NCBI RefSeq assembly: GCF_018137965.1
Contig: NZ_CP073100.1
Location: forward strand, 434,001-498,000
Length of the DNA: 64,000 bases
Direction: 5' to 3'
Source: Luteolibacter ambystomatis
GTDB taxonomy: Bacteria > Verrucomicrobiota > Verrucomicrobiia > Verrucomicrobiales > Akkermansiaceae
Positions 53,504 through 59,016 of this stretch are shown piece by piece. The notes beneath the pieces were generated by a model, which was given only the letters and a program-made list of their open reading frames with translations, was not told where the DNA came from and did not search any database. Positions within the stretch are counted from its first letter, which is position 1, and the number at the start of each line of letters is the position of its first letter. The position numbers and the translations under genes are program-made.

Positions 53504-54094
53504 TCAGGTCGTTTGGCGCTTGGAGAGAACCACCACGCCGACGGTGGCGACCAGGAGAAGCACGCCGAGGATCTGGAGCGGCAGGTTGTAGCCGGTGAAA
53601 AGTGTCTGGCCGACGATGTGGACGTCCGGGAGCTTGGCGGCGGGCAGTGGCTCGCCTTCGCGCGGTTGCGGATCAAGAGCGGCGACGATCTTCTCGCTCT
53701 TTTGCTCGCGGTAGTAGGCGGCGCCCTTCGCGAGATCGAGCTTCTGCGCCTGAAGGTCCGGGGTGCTGGAAAGAACGCCCGCGAGCTGGATGACGAAAGC
53801 GAGCACCAGCACCAGACCGGCGGCGATCGGAGCGATCTTGGTCTTGCGCTTCACCTCATCCTTGAGGTCCAGCAGCATGATGATGAAGAGAAACAACACC
53901 ATGATCGCACCCGCATAGACGAGGATCTGGATGATGCCGGTGAAGTAGGTATCCAGTCCGACGAAGAGACCGGCGATGCCGACGAAGGAGGCCACCATCG
54001 AGAGCGCGCTAGAGACCGGGTTGCGGAAGCAGATGACGGCAACGCCGCCGATCAACATCAGCAGGGCGAAGATCCAGAAGAGAGGGGAAGGCAT
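53504..54094 (-). CDS. nuoJ: NADH-quinone oxidoreductase subunit J
   Basis: NuoJ is a five-helix membrane subunit of complex I near the quinone/proton channel (196 aa). VICFRNPVSSALSMVASFVGIAGLFVG and the helix YFTGIIQILVYAGAIMVLFLF, with its pi-bulge region, are diagnostic. A loop of about 50 residues between the last two helices is charged and variable, as in other bacteria. It follows a 57-aa reading frame not present in standard nuo operons. Confidence 0.94.
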   Translation of the reverse strand: MPSPLFWIFALLMLIGGVAVICFRNPVSSALSMVASFVGIAGLFVGLDTYFTGIIQILVYAGAIMVLFLFIIMLLDLKDEVKRKTKIAPIAAGLVLVLAFVIQLAGVLSSTPDLQAQKLDLAKGAAYYREQKSEKIVAALDPQPREGEPLPAAKLPDVHIVGQTLFTGYNLPLQILGVLLLVATVGVVVLSKRQTT

Positions 54095-54116
54095 GGAAGT
54101 GATTGGGAAAAGGATC

Positions 54117-54290
54117 TCAGCGGTCGTATTTCAAACAAGCCCACCAGCCGGACATGCCGAAGCCAATGATGGCAAAGGATACGGCGGTCATGATCATACC
54201 GGGAATACTGAGGAGACCCATGTGGCTTACTGCCGCCGTAAGGGTGTATAACCCGGCCATGACGATGAGCGCTGCTGAAAGGGCTTTCAT
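54117..54290 (-). CDS. small two-helix membrane protein between nuoI and nuoJ, 57 aa
   Basis: An ATG at 54288-54290 opens a 57-codon frame (MKALSAALIVMAGLYTLTAA... ending WWACLKYDR) with two hydrophobic helices at about 4-23 and 28-50. It sits 15 nt after nuoI and 22 nt before nuoJ on the same strand, with no competing frame. Spacing and hydrophobicity argue for a real gene co-expressed with complex I. It is too short for similarity to be judged by eye. It could be an accessory membrane subunit or an assembly factor; neither is shown. Confidence 0.7.
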   Translation of the reverse strand: MKALSAALIVMAGLYTLTAAVSHMGLLSIPGMIMTAVSFAIIGFGMSGWWACLKYDR

Positions 54291-54305
54291 GGGGAGAACG
54301 TCGGA

Positions 54306-54872
54306 TTACTTCAGCTCGTTCCACTTGTTGACGAGGCCCACCCGGACACCGCCGATTTCGTAAAGCTTCTTCTTGGTGTGGACCATGTCCTTCCGGCTCA
54401 GGCCGGTGATGGCGTAGTCCTTGCGGAGGAAGATCGCCTGCTCGGGGCAGACTTCCTCGCACATGCCGCAGTAGATGCAGCGGATCATGTCGATATCGAA
54501 CTCGAGCGGACGCTTCTCCACCTTCGCCCACTGGTCGTCGGCGGGGATTTCGCTCGGGGTGATCTTGATCGCCTTCGGCGGGCAGATGAATTCGCAGAGC
54601 TGGCAGGAGACGCAGCGTTCGCGGCCCTGCTCGTCCGTCACCAGCGCGGGGGCGCCGCGGTAGTGCTCCGGCAGGTGCTCGTCCCACTTCTGCTCCGGAT
54701 ACTGCATGGTCACGCCGAGACCGGAGGAGGCGAGCTCCTTCGCGCCGCGGGACTTGCCGCGCATCGAATCGACGGCGTGTTTCATCGTGAGCAGGAAGCC
54801 CTTGATGAGCGCGCCGAAGTAGATCTTCTCACCGAAGCTCAGTTTCGGGCGTTTGACTTTGATGACGGCCAT
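54306..54872 (-). CDS. nuoI: NADH-quinone oxidoreductase subunit I
   Basis: NuoI is the 8Fe ferredoxin-like subunit carrying clusters N6a and N6b, which pass electrons to N2 and quinone. Both 4Fe-4S motifs are intact: CVSCQLCEFICPPKAI and CIYCGMCEEVCPEQAI. An N-terminal amphipathic segment (FGALIKGFLLTMKHAVDSM) lies on the membrane. It is 188 aa long. Upstream lies the GxxExxY cassette, whose arm begins about 5 nt from the nuoI start codon. Confidence 0.96.
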   Translation of the reverse strand: MAVIKVKRPKLSFGEKIYFGALIKGFLLTMKHAVDSMRGKSRGAKELASSGLGVTMQYPEQKWDEHLPEHYRGAPALVTDEQGRERCVSCQLCEFICPPKAIKITPSEIPADDQWAKVEKRPLEFDIDMIRCIYCGMCEEVCPEQAIFLRKDYAITGLSRKDMVHTKKKLYEIGGVRVGLVNKWNELK

Positions 54873-54876
54873 TTTT

Positions 54877-55370
54877 GGACAGAATTGACAGAATTTTCAA
54901 AATTTACAGGTCGTGAGGTCACGCCTGTAGAGAAGGTGGGTCTCCTTGATGTTTATAGGTTCGGAATTTTTTCCGATACTGCAGCGAGTCACTCCCCAAG
55001 TTGATCAGCAGTCCTTCATCAATTTTGGTGGTGGCCAGATAGTTGACCAGTTGCACCTCATGGCTCTTGGTAATCGTTTCGACGGCTTTGAGTTCGAGAA
55101 CCAGATTGTTTTCGACAATCATGTCAGCCTCAAAATCTCCAACGGGCCGTTCCTTGTAGTAGACACAGAGTTTGACCTGGTTCTCAAATTGGATTCCGAC
55201 CGCAGCCAATTCCAAGGACAGCGCGTTTTGATAGACCCGCTCGTTGAACCCCGGGCCGAGAACACGATGAACCGTCATGGCGCAGCCGATCACCCGGCCA
55301 GCCAAGTCGTATTCGCGTTCGTCGTTCGTCTTCAAAATGTAAATTCTGCGAATTTTGTTAATTCTGTTCC
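54877..55370. mobile_element. putative cassette bracketed by period-9 inverted arms, carrying a GxxExxY gene
   Basis: Left arm (from 54877): GG-ACAGAATTG-ACAGAATTT-TCAAAATTT-ACA. Right arm (ending 55370), read on minus: GGA-ACAGAATTA-ACAAAATTC-GCAGAATTT-ACA. About 25 of 30 positions agree, and the CAnAATT core is kept in all six 9-mers. The arms enclose one AT-richer gene. The nuoH stop codon (TAA, 55358-55360) lies inside the right arm and the nuoI start is 4 nt beyond the left arm, so the element occupies the whole nuoH-nuoI spacer. There is no transposase and no clear target duplication. Confidence 0.65.
54919..55335 (-). CDS. GxxExxY family protein (PD-(D/E)XK nuclease-like)
   Basis: The 138-aa protein has the name-giving motif GFNERVY within HRVLGPGFNERVYQ. 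The downstream core FEADMIVENN ... LELKA resembles the D...E-x-K active site of PD-(D/E)XK nucleases, the superfamily to which GxxExxY proteins are assigned. The reading frame has no ATG at the right place; a TTG at 55333-55335 (MKTNDEREYDLAG) gives the usual family start. It is visibly lower in GC than nuoH and nuoI, which suggests separate origin. It lies between period-9 inverted arms. No biochemical role is known to me for this family. Confidence 0.85.
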   Translation of the reverse strand: MKTNDEREYDLAGRVIGCAMTVHRVLGPGFNERVYQNALSLELAAVGIQFENQVKLCVYYKERPVGDFEADMIVENNLVLELKAVETITKSHEVQLVNYLATTKIDEGLLINLGSDSLQYRKKFRTYKHQGDPPSLQA

Positions 55371-56629
55371 AAGAGGCCCGAGTTGCGCTTGGCTGGCTCT
55401 TCGGAAACCTTCGCGACCCAGATGATGGCGGCGCAGAGGACGACCAGCAGCACGGCACCGAGGGCGATGATGCCCACGGACAGGTAAGGGGCGGCGATGA
55501 CGAGCGCAGCGAGGAAGACATTCACCAGCGCGGCTTCGAAGAAGATCACCCAGCCCAGCTTCATGAGCTGGTCGTAGCGGAAGCGCGGCACCGTCCAGCG
55601 GACGAGAATGAAGAAGAGGATGAAGGCGATCAGCTTGGTGAGGAACACCAGCAGGTGAACCAGTCCGCCGATCTTCGCACCGGCCACGGTAAGGCCGGAG
55701 ATCCAACCATCGAGGGTGAACCCCGCCGACCAGCCGCCGAAAAACAGGGTGATGATGAGTGCTGAACCCACCACCATCGCCGCGTATTCGCCCATGAAGA
55801 ACATGGCGAACTTCATCGAGGAGTATTCGGTGTGGTAGCCACCCACGAGTTCGGTTTCGCACTCCGGCAGGTCGAAGGGCATGCGGTTGGTTTCCGCGAA
55901 GATCGAGATCGTGAAGATCAGGAAGGAGATGAACGCCGGGATCCAGAACAGCAGCTTGGTGCCCAGAGGATGTGCCGCGTCATTGCCCCAGAAGGGCAGC
56001 AGCAGCCAGCCATGCTCGGATTGCTCCTGGACGATCTTGCCGAGGTTCAGGTCTCCGTAATAGAGCAGCACCGGGATGATCGAGAGACCGAGGCAGATTT
56101 CGTAGGAGATCATCTGGGCCGTGGAACGCACACCGCCGATGAAGGGGAACTTCGAGTTCGAGGACCAGCCCGCCAGCGTGATGCCGTAGACGGAGAGCGA
56201 GGCGATCGAGAAGATGAACAGCGGGCCGACATCGAGGTTCGCGATGGCGAGGTCGATCTTCTGGCCGCCGATGGTGATCGAGGAGCCAAAGGGAATCACC
56301 GCCAAGGTGATCAGGGACGGGGCCACGGTCAGCACCGGAGCGAGCCAGTAGAAGGCTTTGCGGACATGGGTCGGCGTGAAATCCTCCTTGAGGAACAGCT
56401 TCACACCGTCGGCCATCGGCTGGATCAGACCGGCGAAGGAGAAGTCCTTCTTCAGTCCGAACAAAGTGAGCGGAATGCCGACGCGGTTCGGGCCGACGCG
56501 GTCCTGGATGACAGCGGAGAAGCGGCGCTCGAAGTAAACCGAAATCGGCACCAGCGGCAGCACGACCAGGAAGGTCAGGCCGATGATTTTCGCCAGCGTG
56601 ATGAGAATGGTAAGAAGCAGGGGGTCCAT
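55358..56629 (-). CDS. nuoH: NADH-quinone oxidoreductase subunit H
   Basis: NuoH forms much of the quinone chamber of complex I with about eight helices. The 423 aa include ERRFSAVIQDRVGPNRVG, the quinone-site loop NRMPFDLPECETELVGGYHTEYSSMKF and the RWTVPRFRYDQLMKLGW block, all diagnostic. The C-terminus is a little extended, and its last two codons overlap the arm of the downstream cassette. Upstream, the start codon is 7 nt from the arm of the four-helix-bundle cassette. Confidence 0.96.
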   Translation of the reverse strand: MDPLLLTILITLAKIIGLTFLVVLPLVPISVYFERRFSAVIQDRVGPNRVGIPLTLFGLKKDFSFAGLIQPMADGVKLFLKEDFTPTHVRKAFYWLAPVLTVAPSLITLAVIPFGSSITIGGQKIDLAIANLDVGPLFIFSIASLSVYGITLAGWSSNSKFPFIGGVRSTAQMISYEICLGLSIIPVLLYYGDLNLGKIVQEQSEHGWLLLPFWGNDAAHPLGTKLLFWIPAFISFLIFTISIFAETNRMPFDLPECETELVGGYHTEYSSMKFAMFFMGEYAAMVVGSALIITLFFGGWSAGFTLDGWISGLTVAGAKIGGLVHLLVFLTKLIAFILFFILVRWTVPRFRYDQLMKLGWVIFFEAALVNVFLAALVIAAPYLSVGIIALGAVLLVVLCAAIIWVAKVSEEPAKRNSGLLEQN

Positions 56630-56636
56630 GAAAAAC

Positions 56637-57092
56637 GTTAGACGTTATGGGTTAGAGGTTATTGGGTGTCTCTTTCCCGTGATGCGCGCCGGAGATATGA
56701 AATGTAGCCATTTAGGAGCGCGATGGCGGTGGCCGCGAGAGCACGTCCTTGCTCAAGCAATTCACTTGTGATGATTTCCTCGTCATGAGCGGTGATGAGA
56801 TGGTCGACCATCTCCCAGCAGGAACCGCGGGCGTTGGAGCAAAATTTCGCATTGTCGAGGTAGTGGAAACGACCGTAGCCCTCGGCGATATTGGCCGTGC
56901 TGGATCGGGCTGCCCGAAGGATTTGATCGCCCAATCGGAAGCGCTCTTCCTTTGGGAGGGCTTTGCAGATGGTCTTCGCCACGAAAACACGAAGTTCCCG
57001 GCATGCTTTCCAGCATTCCAAGTCTTCAAACGTTTTCAGTGATTCTCGATCCATGTATTTTTCCCAATAACTCTTAACTTCTAACCCTTAAC
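56637..57092. mobile_element. putative cassette bracketed by period-7 inverted arms, carrying a four-helix-bundle gene
   Basis: Left arm (56637-56666): GTTA-gac-GTTA-tgg-GTTA-gag-GTTA-TTGGG. Right arm (57063-57092), read on minus: GTTA-agg-GTTA-gaa-GTTA-aga-GTTA-TTGGG. All 21 framework positions match while all nine spacer positions differ. The nuoG stop codon is TAA within the outermost right-arm unit, and the enclosed gene's own stop is in the innermost left-arm unit. The element fills the nuoG-nuoH spacer. There is no transposase. Confidence 0.7.
56659..57054 (-). CDS. four-helix-bundle protein (S23/IVS-encoded family)
   Basis: The 131-aa protein belongs to the four-helix-bundle family formerly called S23 ribosomal protein, whose members are encoded in intervening sequences of 23S rRNA genes and, as Avd, in diversity-generating retroelements. 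Family marks are FEDLECWKACRELRVFV, FRLGDQILRAARSSTANIAEG and the C-terminal helix ALLNGYISYLRR. The bundle is basic on one face and the family forms pentameric barrels. Lower GC than the flanking nuo genes and position between inverted period-7 arms point to insertion. There is no reverse transcriptase nearby, so it is not a retroelement Avd. Confidence 0.9.
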   Translation of the reverse strand: MDRESLKTFEDLECWKACRELRVFVAKTICKALPKEERFRLGDQILRAARSSTANIAEGYGRFHYLDNAKFCSNARGSCWEMVDHLITAHDEEIITSELLEQGRALAATAIALLNGYISYLRRASRERDTQ

Positions 57093-58845
57093 CATTAATG
57101 ATGCCAGCGGCCTTGCGGGCGCGTTCGTTCACGAGGAGCGGGATTTGGTAACCGGTTTCGAGGACCTGTTTGCCCTGGTCGCCGATCTTGGAAAGCGTGA
57201 GGCCATTGAAGGCGGGGACGGCATCGGCCATCGCCTTGAAGACGTCCTCGATCATGTGGACCTCGTTCTTCTCACCGCTGAGGGCGAGGATGAGGTCGCG
57301 GAGGATTTCCCAATCGTCGCGGGCATGGGCCGGAGGCTCGACGGCGCGGTTGAGGCGCTGGAGGCGGCCGGAGAGATTGACCATCGAGCCGCGCTTTTCG
57401 GTAAAACCGGCGGCGGGTAGCACGACGGTGGCGAGATCGGCGGTCGGGTTGGCCAAGGTGGCGACCTGGAGAATGAACGAGGCTTTCTCGAGTTCCTCGC
57501 GGGTGAACCCGGCATCGCCGAGCAGGTCCTCACCGAGGGCGATCACCGCCTTGATCGAGCCATTGTCGAGGCCGTAGCGGACATGTGCCAGCGCGGCGGA
57601 CGGATCGGTGGTGTCCCAGACCAGCTTGGCACCGGTGGTGTTCGGATTGCGGTCGGCGGCGACGAGCAGGCTGTCCGCCTGGCCCTCGCGCGGGACGATG
57701 GCCAGCGCGGGCGTGCCGATCTCGGCGGCCAGCGCGCGGGCCATGAAAAGCTCTTCATTGGTCATCCGGCCGGAGGCGATCACGGCCACCTCGCCGGGCT
57801 GGAAGGTCTTGATGTTGTTCGCTGCGATTTCCAGCGCGGTCTTCCAGGTGACCGGCGTGTGCGGGCCGCTGACCTTCACCAGCGGTTCGGTCAGGCGCGC
57901 ATCGGAATCCAGCCCGTGGAAGGAAAGGCGGTGCGAGTCCGGCATCCACGTCGAGTTCACCTCGTCGTTGCGACGCGGGGTGATGCGGTGGACCTTGTTT
58001 CCGCGGGTCCAGACGATGATGTTGGAGCCGGTGCCGCAGTTGATGTCGATGGACTTGGTTTCCTTCAGGAACCAAACGCGCATCTGGAAGCGGAAGTCGT
58101 TCGAGGTCAGCGCGCCGACGGGGCAGATGTCCACCGTGTTCAGCGAGTAGTTGCTGTCCAGCAAGCGGCCCGGATGGACCGTGAGGGTGGTGTGGGTGCC
58201 ACGCTGGGTGAAGCCGAGCACCGGATCTCCGGCCACCTCGTCCATGAAGCGGATGCAGCGGCTGCACATGATGCAGCGCTCGTCATCGAGCCGGACGCGC
58301 GGGCCGATGTCCACGTTCTTCGGCTTCTTCACCTTCATGTCCACGAACCGCGAGGAGCCGCGGCCGTGCTCGACGGAAAATTCCTGCAGGCGGCACTCGC
58401 CGGCCTGGTCGCAGATCGGGCAATCGAGCGGGTGGTTGATCAGGAGGAACTCCATCACGCCCTCGCGGCATTTCTCCACCAGCTCGCCGCTGGTGCGGAT
58501 GCCCATGTTCTCGCCCACCGTGTTGGCGCAGGCGATCACCGGGCGCGGCATCCAGCCGATGATTTCGTAGCCGTCCTCATCGCGGGTCGGCTCCTGGCCG
58601 GGGGCGGGGCGGGGCGGCATGCCCATCTGCACGAGGCACATGCGGCAATTGCCAGGCGCGGAAAGCTTCGGATGATAGCAGTAGCGGGGGACGTTGATGC
58701 TGGCCTGGGAGCAGGCCTCGATCATGCGCGTGCCGCGGGGAAACTGGTGCCAAACGCCGTCAATCTGGACGTTGACCATGCCCTTTTCGGCGGCAAGGTC
58801 CTTGGGCAGCTTCTTTTCCGCGGTGGCAGAAGGTGTTTCGCTCAT
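57088..58845 (-). CDS. nuoG: NADH-quinone oxidoreductase subunit G
   Basis: NuoG carries the N1b, N4 and N5 iron-sulfur clusters of complex I. The 585-aa protein has the 2Fe-2S ligands C56, C67, C70 and C106, the N5 set H138, C142, C145 and C151, and the N4 cysteines C191, C194 and C197 plus the one in DICPVGALT. A molybdopterin-oxidoreductase-like region follows but is shorter than in E. coli (908 aa). The ATG at 58843-58845 gives MSETPSATAEKK; an open extension to 58929 is unlikely. It is the first gene of this nuoGHIJKLMN cluster; nuoA-F must lie elsewhere. Confidence 0.95.
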   Translation of the reverse strand: MSETPSATAEKKLPKDLAAEKGMVNVQIDGVWHQFPRGTRMIEACSQASINVPRYCYHPKLSAPGNCRMCLVQMGMPPRPAPGQEPTRDEDGYEIIGWMPRPVIACANTVGENMGIRTSGELVEKCREGVMEFLLINHPLDCPICDQAGECRLQEFSVEHGRGSSRFVDMKVKKPKNVDIGPRVRLDDERCIMCSRCIRFMDEVAGDPVLGFTQRGTHTTLTVHPGRLLDSNYSLNTVDICPVGALTSNDFRFQMRVWFLKETKSIDINCGTGSNIIVWTRGNKVHRITPRRNDEVNSTWMPDSHRLSFHGLDSDARLTEPLVKVSGPHTPVTWKTALEIAANNIKTFQPGEVAVIASGRMTNEELFMARALAAEIGTPALAIVPREGQADSLLVAADRNPNTTGAKLVWDTTDPSAALAHVRYGLDNGSIKAVIALGEDLLGDAGFTREELEKASFILQVATLANPTADLATVVLPAAGFTEKRGSMVNLSGRLQRLNRAVEPPAHARDDWEILRDLILALSGEKNEVHMIEDVFKAMADAVPAFNGLTLSKIGDQGKQVLETGYQIPLLVNERARKAAGIING

Positions 58846-58984
58846 GGCTCGATGGGTCCCCGGACGGGCACGGAGCCCGCCAGTTTCGACCCAAACTATG
58901 AGTGTCCCGCCCTCGCCCCGGCAAGCCACTTTGTGAAAAGTTTCACAAGGCGCAAGACCTCGCGGTCCAACAGGAATCCAACAA

Positions 58985-59016
58985 AAAAGCCGGGCCCCGA
59001 GAGGAGTCCGGCTTTT
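58985..59016 (-). terminator. rho-independent terminator of efp
   Basis: AAAAGCCGG (58985-58993) pairs with CCGGCTTTT (59008-59016). On minus the stem is followed by TTTTTTG. It lies 22 nt past the efp stop. Confidence 0.85.

Follow-up and report, generated by a model that had tools for sequence, protein, structure and literature searches.

Intervening sequences (IVSs) of 23S rRNA, for example in Coxiella burnetii, encode the same protein family (as the S23 ORF) as the small gene described below (PMC4990558). In the available text of that source, the terminal repeats of an rRNA IVS with this ORF form a 28-bp stem that is cut by RNase III, a role of the ORF in mobility is credited to an earlier suggestion (Ralph and McClelland 1993, cited in PMC4990558), and the family member from Xanthomonas is a toroidal homopentamer. 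The likeness of the family, PF05635, to the Avd protein has also been remarked upon (PMC10053308). Heptamer repeats, too, are known from several bacteria, without an agreed cause in the portions of the literature available to us: hairpin-forming STRR or 7-bp repeats in cyanobacterial operons (Mazel 1990, cited in PMC2670836), GGGAATC and GGGGACT repeats, which in Xanthomonas mostly have four units (PMC4692102), and TAACTGA arrays of Beggiatoaceae, some of them inside operons and before start codons (PMC4679880). In many genomes no other class of longer simple repeats is as common as heptamers, for which an origin by slippage has been suggested (PMC4679880, PMC4692102). The accessible text of PMC2670836 states no link of the cyanobacterial repeats to a protein, the terms ‘four helix’, ‘23S’ and ‘S23’ have no occurrence in that of PMC4679880, nor does ‘four helix’ in that of PMC4692102, and we found no link between a PF05635 protein and heptad repeats in the open-licence PubMed Central literature as far as its text was accessible. 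The locus described here joins the two.

The window, by which we mean the whole 64,000-nt stretch of Luteolibacter ambystomatis DNA that was analysed (contig NZ_CP073100.1, positions 434,001 to 498,000), carries on its minus strand a 131-aa gene (56659..57054) between two host genes that we take to be nuoG (57088..58929, matched to nuoG of relatives) and nuoH (55358..56629). The order on the operon strand is nuoG, left arm, 131-aa gene, right arm, nuoH. The left (upstream) arm (57063..57092, running from 57092 to 57063 on the operon strand) reads GTTAAGG GTTAGAA GTTAAGA GTTATTGGG, and the right (downstream) arm (56637..56666, minus strand) reads CCCAATAAC CTCTAAC CCATAAC GTCTAAC on the operon strand, or GTTAGAC GTTATGG GTTAGAG GTTATTGGG on the plus strand, such that the gene-side end of each arm is GTTATTGGG or its complement. 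Both arms consist, as a preliminary description had claimed from the letters alone, of four inverted GTTA units at an exact 7-nt spacing, and both do supply stop codons, with the nuoG TAA (57088-57090) inside the left arm and the TAA of the inner gene (56659-56661) inside the right one. That description had also stressed that the arms agree in all 21 framework bases while all nine spacer bases differ, which is correct in one register; slid by one heptad, however, the arms are complementary at 16 of 18 positions (89% over 18 nt), so that the argument from nine differing spacers depends on the register chosen. The right arm is additionally called as a tandem repeat of period 14 (TRF, 56637-56667), and no Rfam family matched positions 54000-59000 at E<=0.1.

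The four-helix-bundle assignment of the encoded protein is confirmed by two profiles, PF05635 (23S_rRNA_IVP; 90.7 bits against a curated cut-off of 33.8) and TIGR02436 (85.7 bits against 24), and the closest named records with the gene are Akkermansiaceae/Verrucomicrobiaceae assemblies. A dN/dS of 0.07 against the copy in the congeneric genome G064 shows that the protein is a working one. Its structure model (pLDDT 95.2) has the four-helix-bundle fold of solved members, matching 2GSC (E 4.5e-6, TM 0.78-0.83) and also 2RLD, entries that hold five chains each. It matches less well the Avd protein of diversity-generating retroelements (4DWL, TM 0.70, Foldseek E=0.04; the 8UB7 series, TM 0.62-0.73, Foldseek E up to 0.1). 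The protein is the only gene of the element, which encodes no transposase family, nuclease, recombinase or reverse transcriptase. It matched 15 plasmid records and, at E<=1e-5, no phage; the DNA of the element matched no plasmid at E<=1e-3.

Periodic arms are widespread among other members of the family, which bears out the expectation of the preliminary description that they should be found there. We assembled 80 loci, 78 of which were typed (L151, at a contig end, and L164, an interrupted match, were left out), and a further set of distinct elements in which 188 of 197 profile hits had usable flanks, representing 157 distinct proteins; the added relatives comprise 29 further loci and 40 further places, part of those listed. 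Across 75 loci (L166, L167 and one more had too little flank), autocorrelation of the flanks peaks at lags 7, 14 and 21, with lag-7 values of 0.101 on the left and 0.122 on the right, while the three controls stay below zero (gene interior -0.021, distant windows -0.024, upstream regions of other genes -0.013). In the set of 157, period-7 arrays exceed the 99% level of a coding null on the left of 97 elements, on the right of 119 and on both sides of 88, while 69 fail on at least one side; the latter include three of the four family copies in the genome studied here (L001 reaches the level on the right alone, and L002 and L004 fail on both sides). Counting overlapping matches on both strands, as for all array and mini counts below, four GTTA units at a 7-nt period occur in 50 of 73 congeneric genomes, and the same four units at an 8-nt period in two of the 73, with one match each. 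The commonest run among 66 GTTA-class elements is four units per side (17 left, 35 right).

The high information of the GTTA columns proves nothing, because these columns were chosen by GTTA, and we relied instead on spacer columns, run lengths and a phase-free test of column decay. In that test mismatches between neighbouring heptads concentrate in particular columns, both in 108 GTTA arms (z=19.0 against uniform decay) and in 97 non-GTTA arms (z=8.6). The selection on 7-nt phasing that had been read from the spacers of this one element thus does not follow from the spacer count, which is register-dependent, but a constraint on phase finds its basis in the column-specific decay of the comparative data. 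The arms are not inverted everywhere: L161, L176, L181, L183 and L322 have direct arrays. On cyanobacterial plasmids, where nine of the 15 plasmid records were checked (four Riemerella records, H10 and H15 were left out), five members have matching inverted heptad arms (L320, L323, L325, L326, L327); among the others, L322 has the direct arrays just mentioned, L321 a right array only and L319 none, and L324 has inverted arms with an 8-nt period. Two of these plasmid genes lie with their periodic arms inside CRISPR-cas operons (L322, cas6 / cas4; L324, cas10 / cmr3). In G064 we also noted two long, nearly perfect GTTAGAG arrays of more than 100 nt (G064:C1, near 2976794 and 3295707), which resemble expanded microsatellites.

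The heptad word itself differs by subfamily, with little in common among GTTANNN, AGTTCAA, TTGGATC, CGGTGAT, TGTTCAG and others, and is shared by the two arms of an element. For this comparison the over-long L166 was dropped (157 to 156); among 40 non-GTTA elements, the two arms of an element have a similarity of 0.704 when inverted, whereas non-cognate arms reach 0.461 and a comparison in direct orientation gives 0.421. The cognate arm is the best match in 20 of the 40 elements and one of the three best in 33 (permutation p<=5e-5). The more alike two proteins are, the more alike are their heptads (Mantel r 0.57, n=127, p=5e-4), which also holds within 48 non-GTTA (r 0.32) and 79 GTTA elements (r 0.62; p=5e-4 each). 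GTTA-type arms accompany this protein class in records labelled Verrucomicrobia, Kiritimatiellales, Bacteroidetes, Ignavibacteriae and Desulfobacterales, though single labels may be wrong because many of the records are metagenome assemblies. The operons they occupy differ, and by our own recognition of the genes presumably include nuoG-nuoH, a place before nuoG, sdhA-sdhB and a V-type ATPase. On these sequence comparisons, the protein subfamily is a better guide to the heptad word than the genomic site is.

The cognate arms could also pair as RNA. The predicted interaction of the two arms of the nuo element is -15.3 kcal/mol, with an interrupted stem; the means are -23.2 for cognate against -13.2 kcal/mol for non-cognate arms in 48 GTTA elements, and -31.7 against -11.8 kcal/mol in 40 other elements, with the cognate arms pairing better in 44 of the 48 and in 36 of the 40. 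Such pairing would be compatible with an IVS-like RNA route.

Arms of this kind also occur without the gene. The genome studied here has nine matches to four GTTA units, seven of them outside the nuo element, in six gene-less mini-elements (‘minis’) of 72-89 nt. Five of these six have stop and start codons of co-directional reading frames within 16 nt of their ends; the sixth (2077439) was placed by reading between two shell-protein-like genes, the strand chosen by the script being implausible. Folded on either strand, the six give z-scores from -1.2 to -8.2 (mononucleotide shuffles). The inward-facing mini pattern occurs in 34 of the 73 congeneric genomes and an outward-facing control pattern in none of them. 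Thirteen of these genomes were taken as protein-positive (best hit to this protein at least 64% identical), and their median numbers of GTTA-array matches (30) and mini matches (14) compare with 1 and 0 in the other 60 (p=2.5e-7 and p=4e-7, respectively, both uncorrected for relatedness); mini matches are non-zero in 12 of the 13 and in 22 of the 60. The exceptions are G075, with the protein but without a mini match, and G071 and G008, where minis are present although no protein hit reaches E<=1e-8; in G069, 113 array matches go with distant protein hits only. The gene-less copies have their ends in common with the gene-bearing element, a MITE-like trait. By eye, the inner ends of many minis of G000 and its relatives prolong the arms by GGGAAGAG / CTCTTCCC-like stretches, as if these minis were cut-down ends of gene-bearing elements.

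The elements lie mostly in short gaps between co-directional genes (81 of 114 with enough flank, a raw count with no null), the median gaps to the neighbouring genes being 44 and 43 nt. At the nuo operon, matches were found in 59 of 61 genomes and 50 congeneric loci were used. Ten of their nuoG-nuoH spacers are filled (one of them, L061, with a remnant), 37 are empty and three could not be scored, so that, on the question of empty sites raised by the preliminary description, 37 of the 47 scored spacers lack the gene. The empty spacers range from traceless (L041, L049) to those with a leftover array (e.g. L042, L043, L051). The closest filled and empty pair (L060 and L067, with nuoH 93.6% identical) is best read as a loss that left a scar: L067 retains a right-arm end like that of L123, fused to nuoG, and the arm now provides the nuoG stop. 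The earlier proposal of a mobile cassette therefore stands in part, as the gene is separable from the operon (10 of 47 filled) and has gene-less derivatives, but movement was not seen and the closest pair records a loss. Among nine loci the inner protein (IVP) and NuoH have similar mean identities (0.72 and 0.78), as would be expected if the insertion were old and had often been lost; taken pair by pair, the two identities show little correlation (r=0.30, rho=0.03), and the two findings together are compatible both with old vertical inheritance with losses and with repeated arrival. Reading the 50 nuo loci by eye revealed no target-site duplication. A second subfamily, often with ATTGG-type heptads, follows nuoI in at least eight of the 50 loci, several stretches ending too early to tell. 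The nuoH-nuoI spacers of L052, L054, L060, L062, L064, L067 and L076 contain yet other inserts, which measure about 0.8-1.2 kb and carry different genes, and the nuo operon hence seems to be a frequent place of insertion.

The nuoH-nuoI spacer of the window itself holds a GxxExxY / PDDEXK_3 gene with a TTG start (54919-55335, minus strand), which is framed by inverted AATT words at a 9-nt spacing (55341-55366 and 54877-54906) and is absent from the same spacer in G064. A usable match was obtained for 31 of 32 GxxExxY loci (all but L006), with 30 left and 31 right flanks. Other genes of this kind (L219-L248, L005) show a lag-9 peak of 0.059 on the left and 0.054 on the right, none at lag 7, and inverted arms of, for example, CGCCAAGA-type words. 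These flanks possibly represent a parallel element family with a 9-nt phase.

We put a rough probability of 60% on the nuo feature being a member of a multi-phylum family of IVS-like elements that lie in intercistronic gaps and whose protein reads the heptads. As we reconstruct it, the complete form has a PF05635 gene flanked by two inverted arrays of some four heptads each, and the gene-less derivative, the mini, has two arms that enclose about 20-50 nt. The arms point inward, could pair with each other and hold to an exact 7-nt phase with an unvarying framework; the heptad word is equal in both arms of one element and unequal between subfamilies. That the PF05635 protein, putatively of a ring-building type, recognises and binds the heptad arrays is in our judgement probable. 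TRAP reads spaced triplets, and the ring would bind an array in much the same manner, with one framework word per subunit or pair of subunits, which would explain the rigid 7-nt phase. The protein may then bring the bound arms together, and an enzyme from elsewhere may make a copy of the element (or, in trans, of a mini) in a further intercistronic gap, where a position between stop and start codons would keep the host operon working. Elements would be lost by deletion, at times leaving an arm scar.

A bolder form of this reading, which we offer tentatively and hold to be possible rather than likely, is a new class of mobile element. In such a class, a non-catalytic ring protein would read the 7-nt-phased paired inverted arrays and mobilise its own gene, and minis in trans, into intercistronic gaps, perhaps by way of an RNA copy, made by a reverse transcriptase acting together with this Avd-like ring; the heptamers of cyanobacteria, Xanthomonas and Beggiatoaceae would be footprints of the class, and the GxxExxY proteins would support a parallel 9-nt class.

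A different account makes the element the mRNA counterpart of an rRNA IVS, in which the nuo transcript would have a stem, formed by the arms, that RNase III or another nuclease cuts, so separating the insert from the messages on either side, and in which the RNA stem is selected and not recognition by the protein. The superior pairing of cognate arms (44 of 48 and 36 of 40 elements) speaks for it, as does the RNase III cleavage of the 28-bp stem that PMC4990558, in the text available, describes for rRNA IVSs with this ORF; pairing alone, however, requires neither the 7-nt phase nor column-specific decay, and the stem of the nuo element is interrupted. We regard this account as rather unlikely, although it is partly compatible with an IVS-like element whose protein reads the heptads. 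It is less likely again that the arrays are host regulatory repeats, with heptad hairpins that tune mRNA stability or translational coupling and a protein that is an autoregulator or a passenger. The arrays do sit at stop/start junctions, and similar roles have been proposed, in the text available to us, for cyanobacterial 7-bp repeats (PMC2670836) and TAACTGA arrays (PMC4679880), but close relatives differ in whether they have the element, the word varies from one protein subfamily to another and arrays are more numerous where the protein occurs.

Microsatellites that arose by replication slippage and flank PF05635 genes by chance would give neither inverted cognate arms nor an inward bias (34 of 73 against 0 of 73 genomes) nor column-specific decay; heptamers are indeed the commonest longer simple repeats in many genomes, with slippage as a proposed origin in the available text (PMC4679880, PMC4692102), and some arrays are long and perfect (e.g. 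in G064 near 2976794), yet we think this origin very improbable. Hardly any weight falls on the arms being all-frame stop modules that protect the neighbours of an insert. Seven leaves one on division by three, and GTTA/TAAC heptads hence place stops in all frames; both host stops at nuoG-nuoH lie in arms, and the right-arm scar of L067 provides a nuoG stop, but words with few or no stops, as judged by reading (AGTTCAA in L014, AAGACNC in L028), keep the 7-nt phase. We expect all-frame stops to remain a side benefit of one class.

Heptad recognition by the protein would join matters that have been treated separately, namely what the S23 protein encoded in IVSs does, where bacterial heptamer repeats come from and the occurrence of many small four-helix-bundle and GxxExxY genes in some genomes, under one testable claim, that a PF05635 protein recognises 7-nt-phased words in paired arrays. 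If this is true, it would account for the origin of much intercistronic DNA that has lacked an explanation in several phyla. It would also open a new code of nucleic-acid recognition to study, since there are dozens of natural pairs in which the arm word varies together with the protein sequence. The relatives and the gene-less minis suggest a widespread and hardly described mobile element that dwells in operons.

Among known systems, MITEs and REPINs are short gene-less inverted structures with ends in common with a gene-bearing relative. The ends of nuo-type elements differ from theirs in being variable heptad arrays rather than fixed terminal repeats, and, unlike in MITEs, the parent gene is PF05635 and no known transposase; none of the 50 nuo loci showed a target duplication on reading. 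Avd (4DWL, 8UB7) may be alike in its five-chain ring type and in its fold (TM about 0.70-0.73, with weak E-values), but its sequence identity is only about 11%. The cyanobacterial 7-bp repeats are similar, in the text available, as hairpin-forming heptads between operon genes (PMC2670836), and arrays of this type flank PF05635 genes on cyanobacterial plasmids, a statement that covers the plasmid members. The G-rich heptamers of Xanthomonas and Nostoc are likewise intergenic, with some positions conserved and others free, but were studied as G-quadruplexes in the portion of the source available (PMC4692102); Xanthomonas is also the source of the solved PF05635 member 2GSC. TAACTGA of Beggiatoaceae is the reverse complement of the GTTATCA phase of the GTTA heptad, although those arrays are mainly described as direct repeats, for which the accessible text gives no cause (PMC4679880). 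The 23S rRNA IVS, as far as the source describes it (PMC4990558), likewise has a PF05635 protein, a short insert in a transcribed unit and stem-capable terminal inverted repeats; the nuo insert differs in sitting between protein genes, outside 23S rRNA, and nuo-type elements have phased heptad arms and miniature copies. Its location means that the nuo element is no rRNA IVS, but its outline is similar, with phased, element-specific arms and minis in addition.
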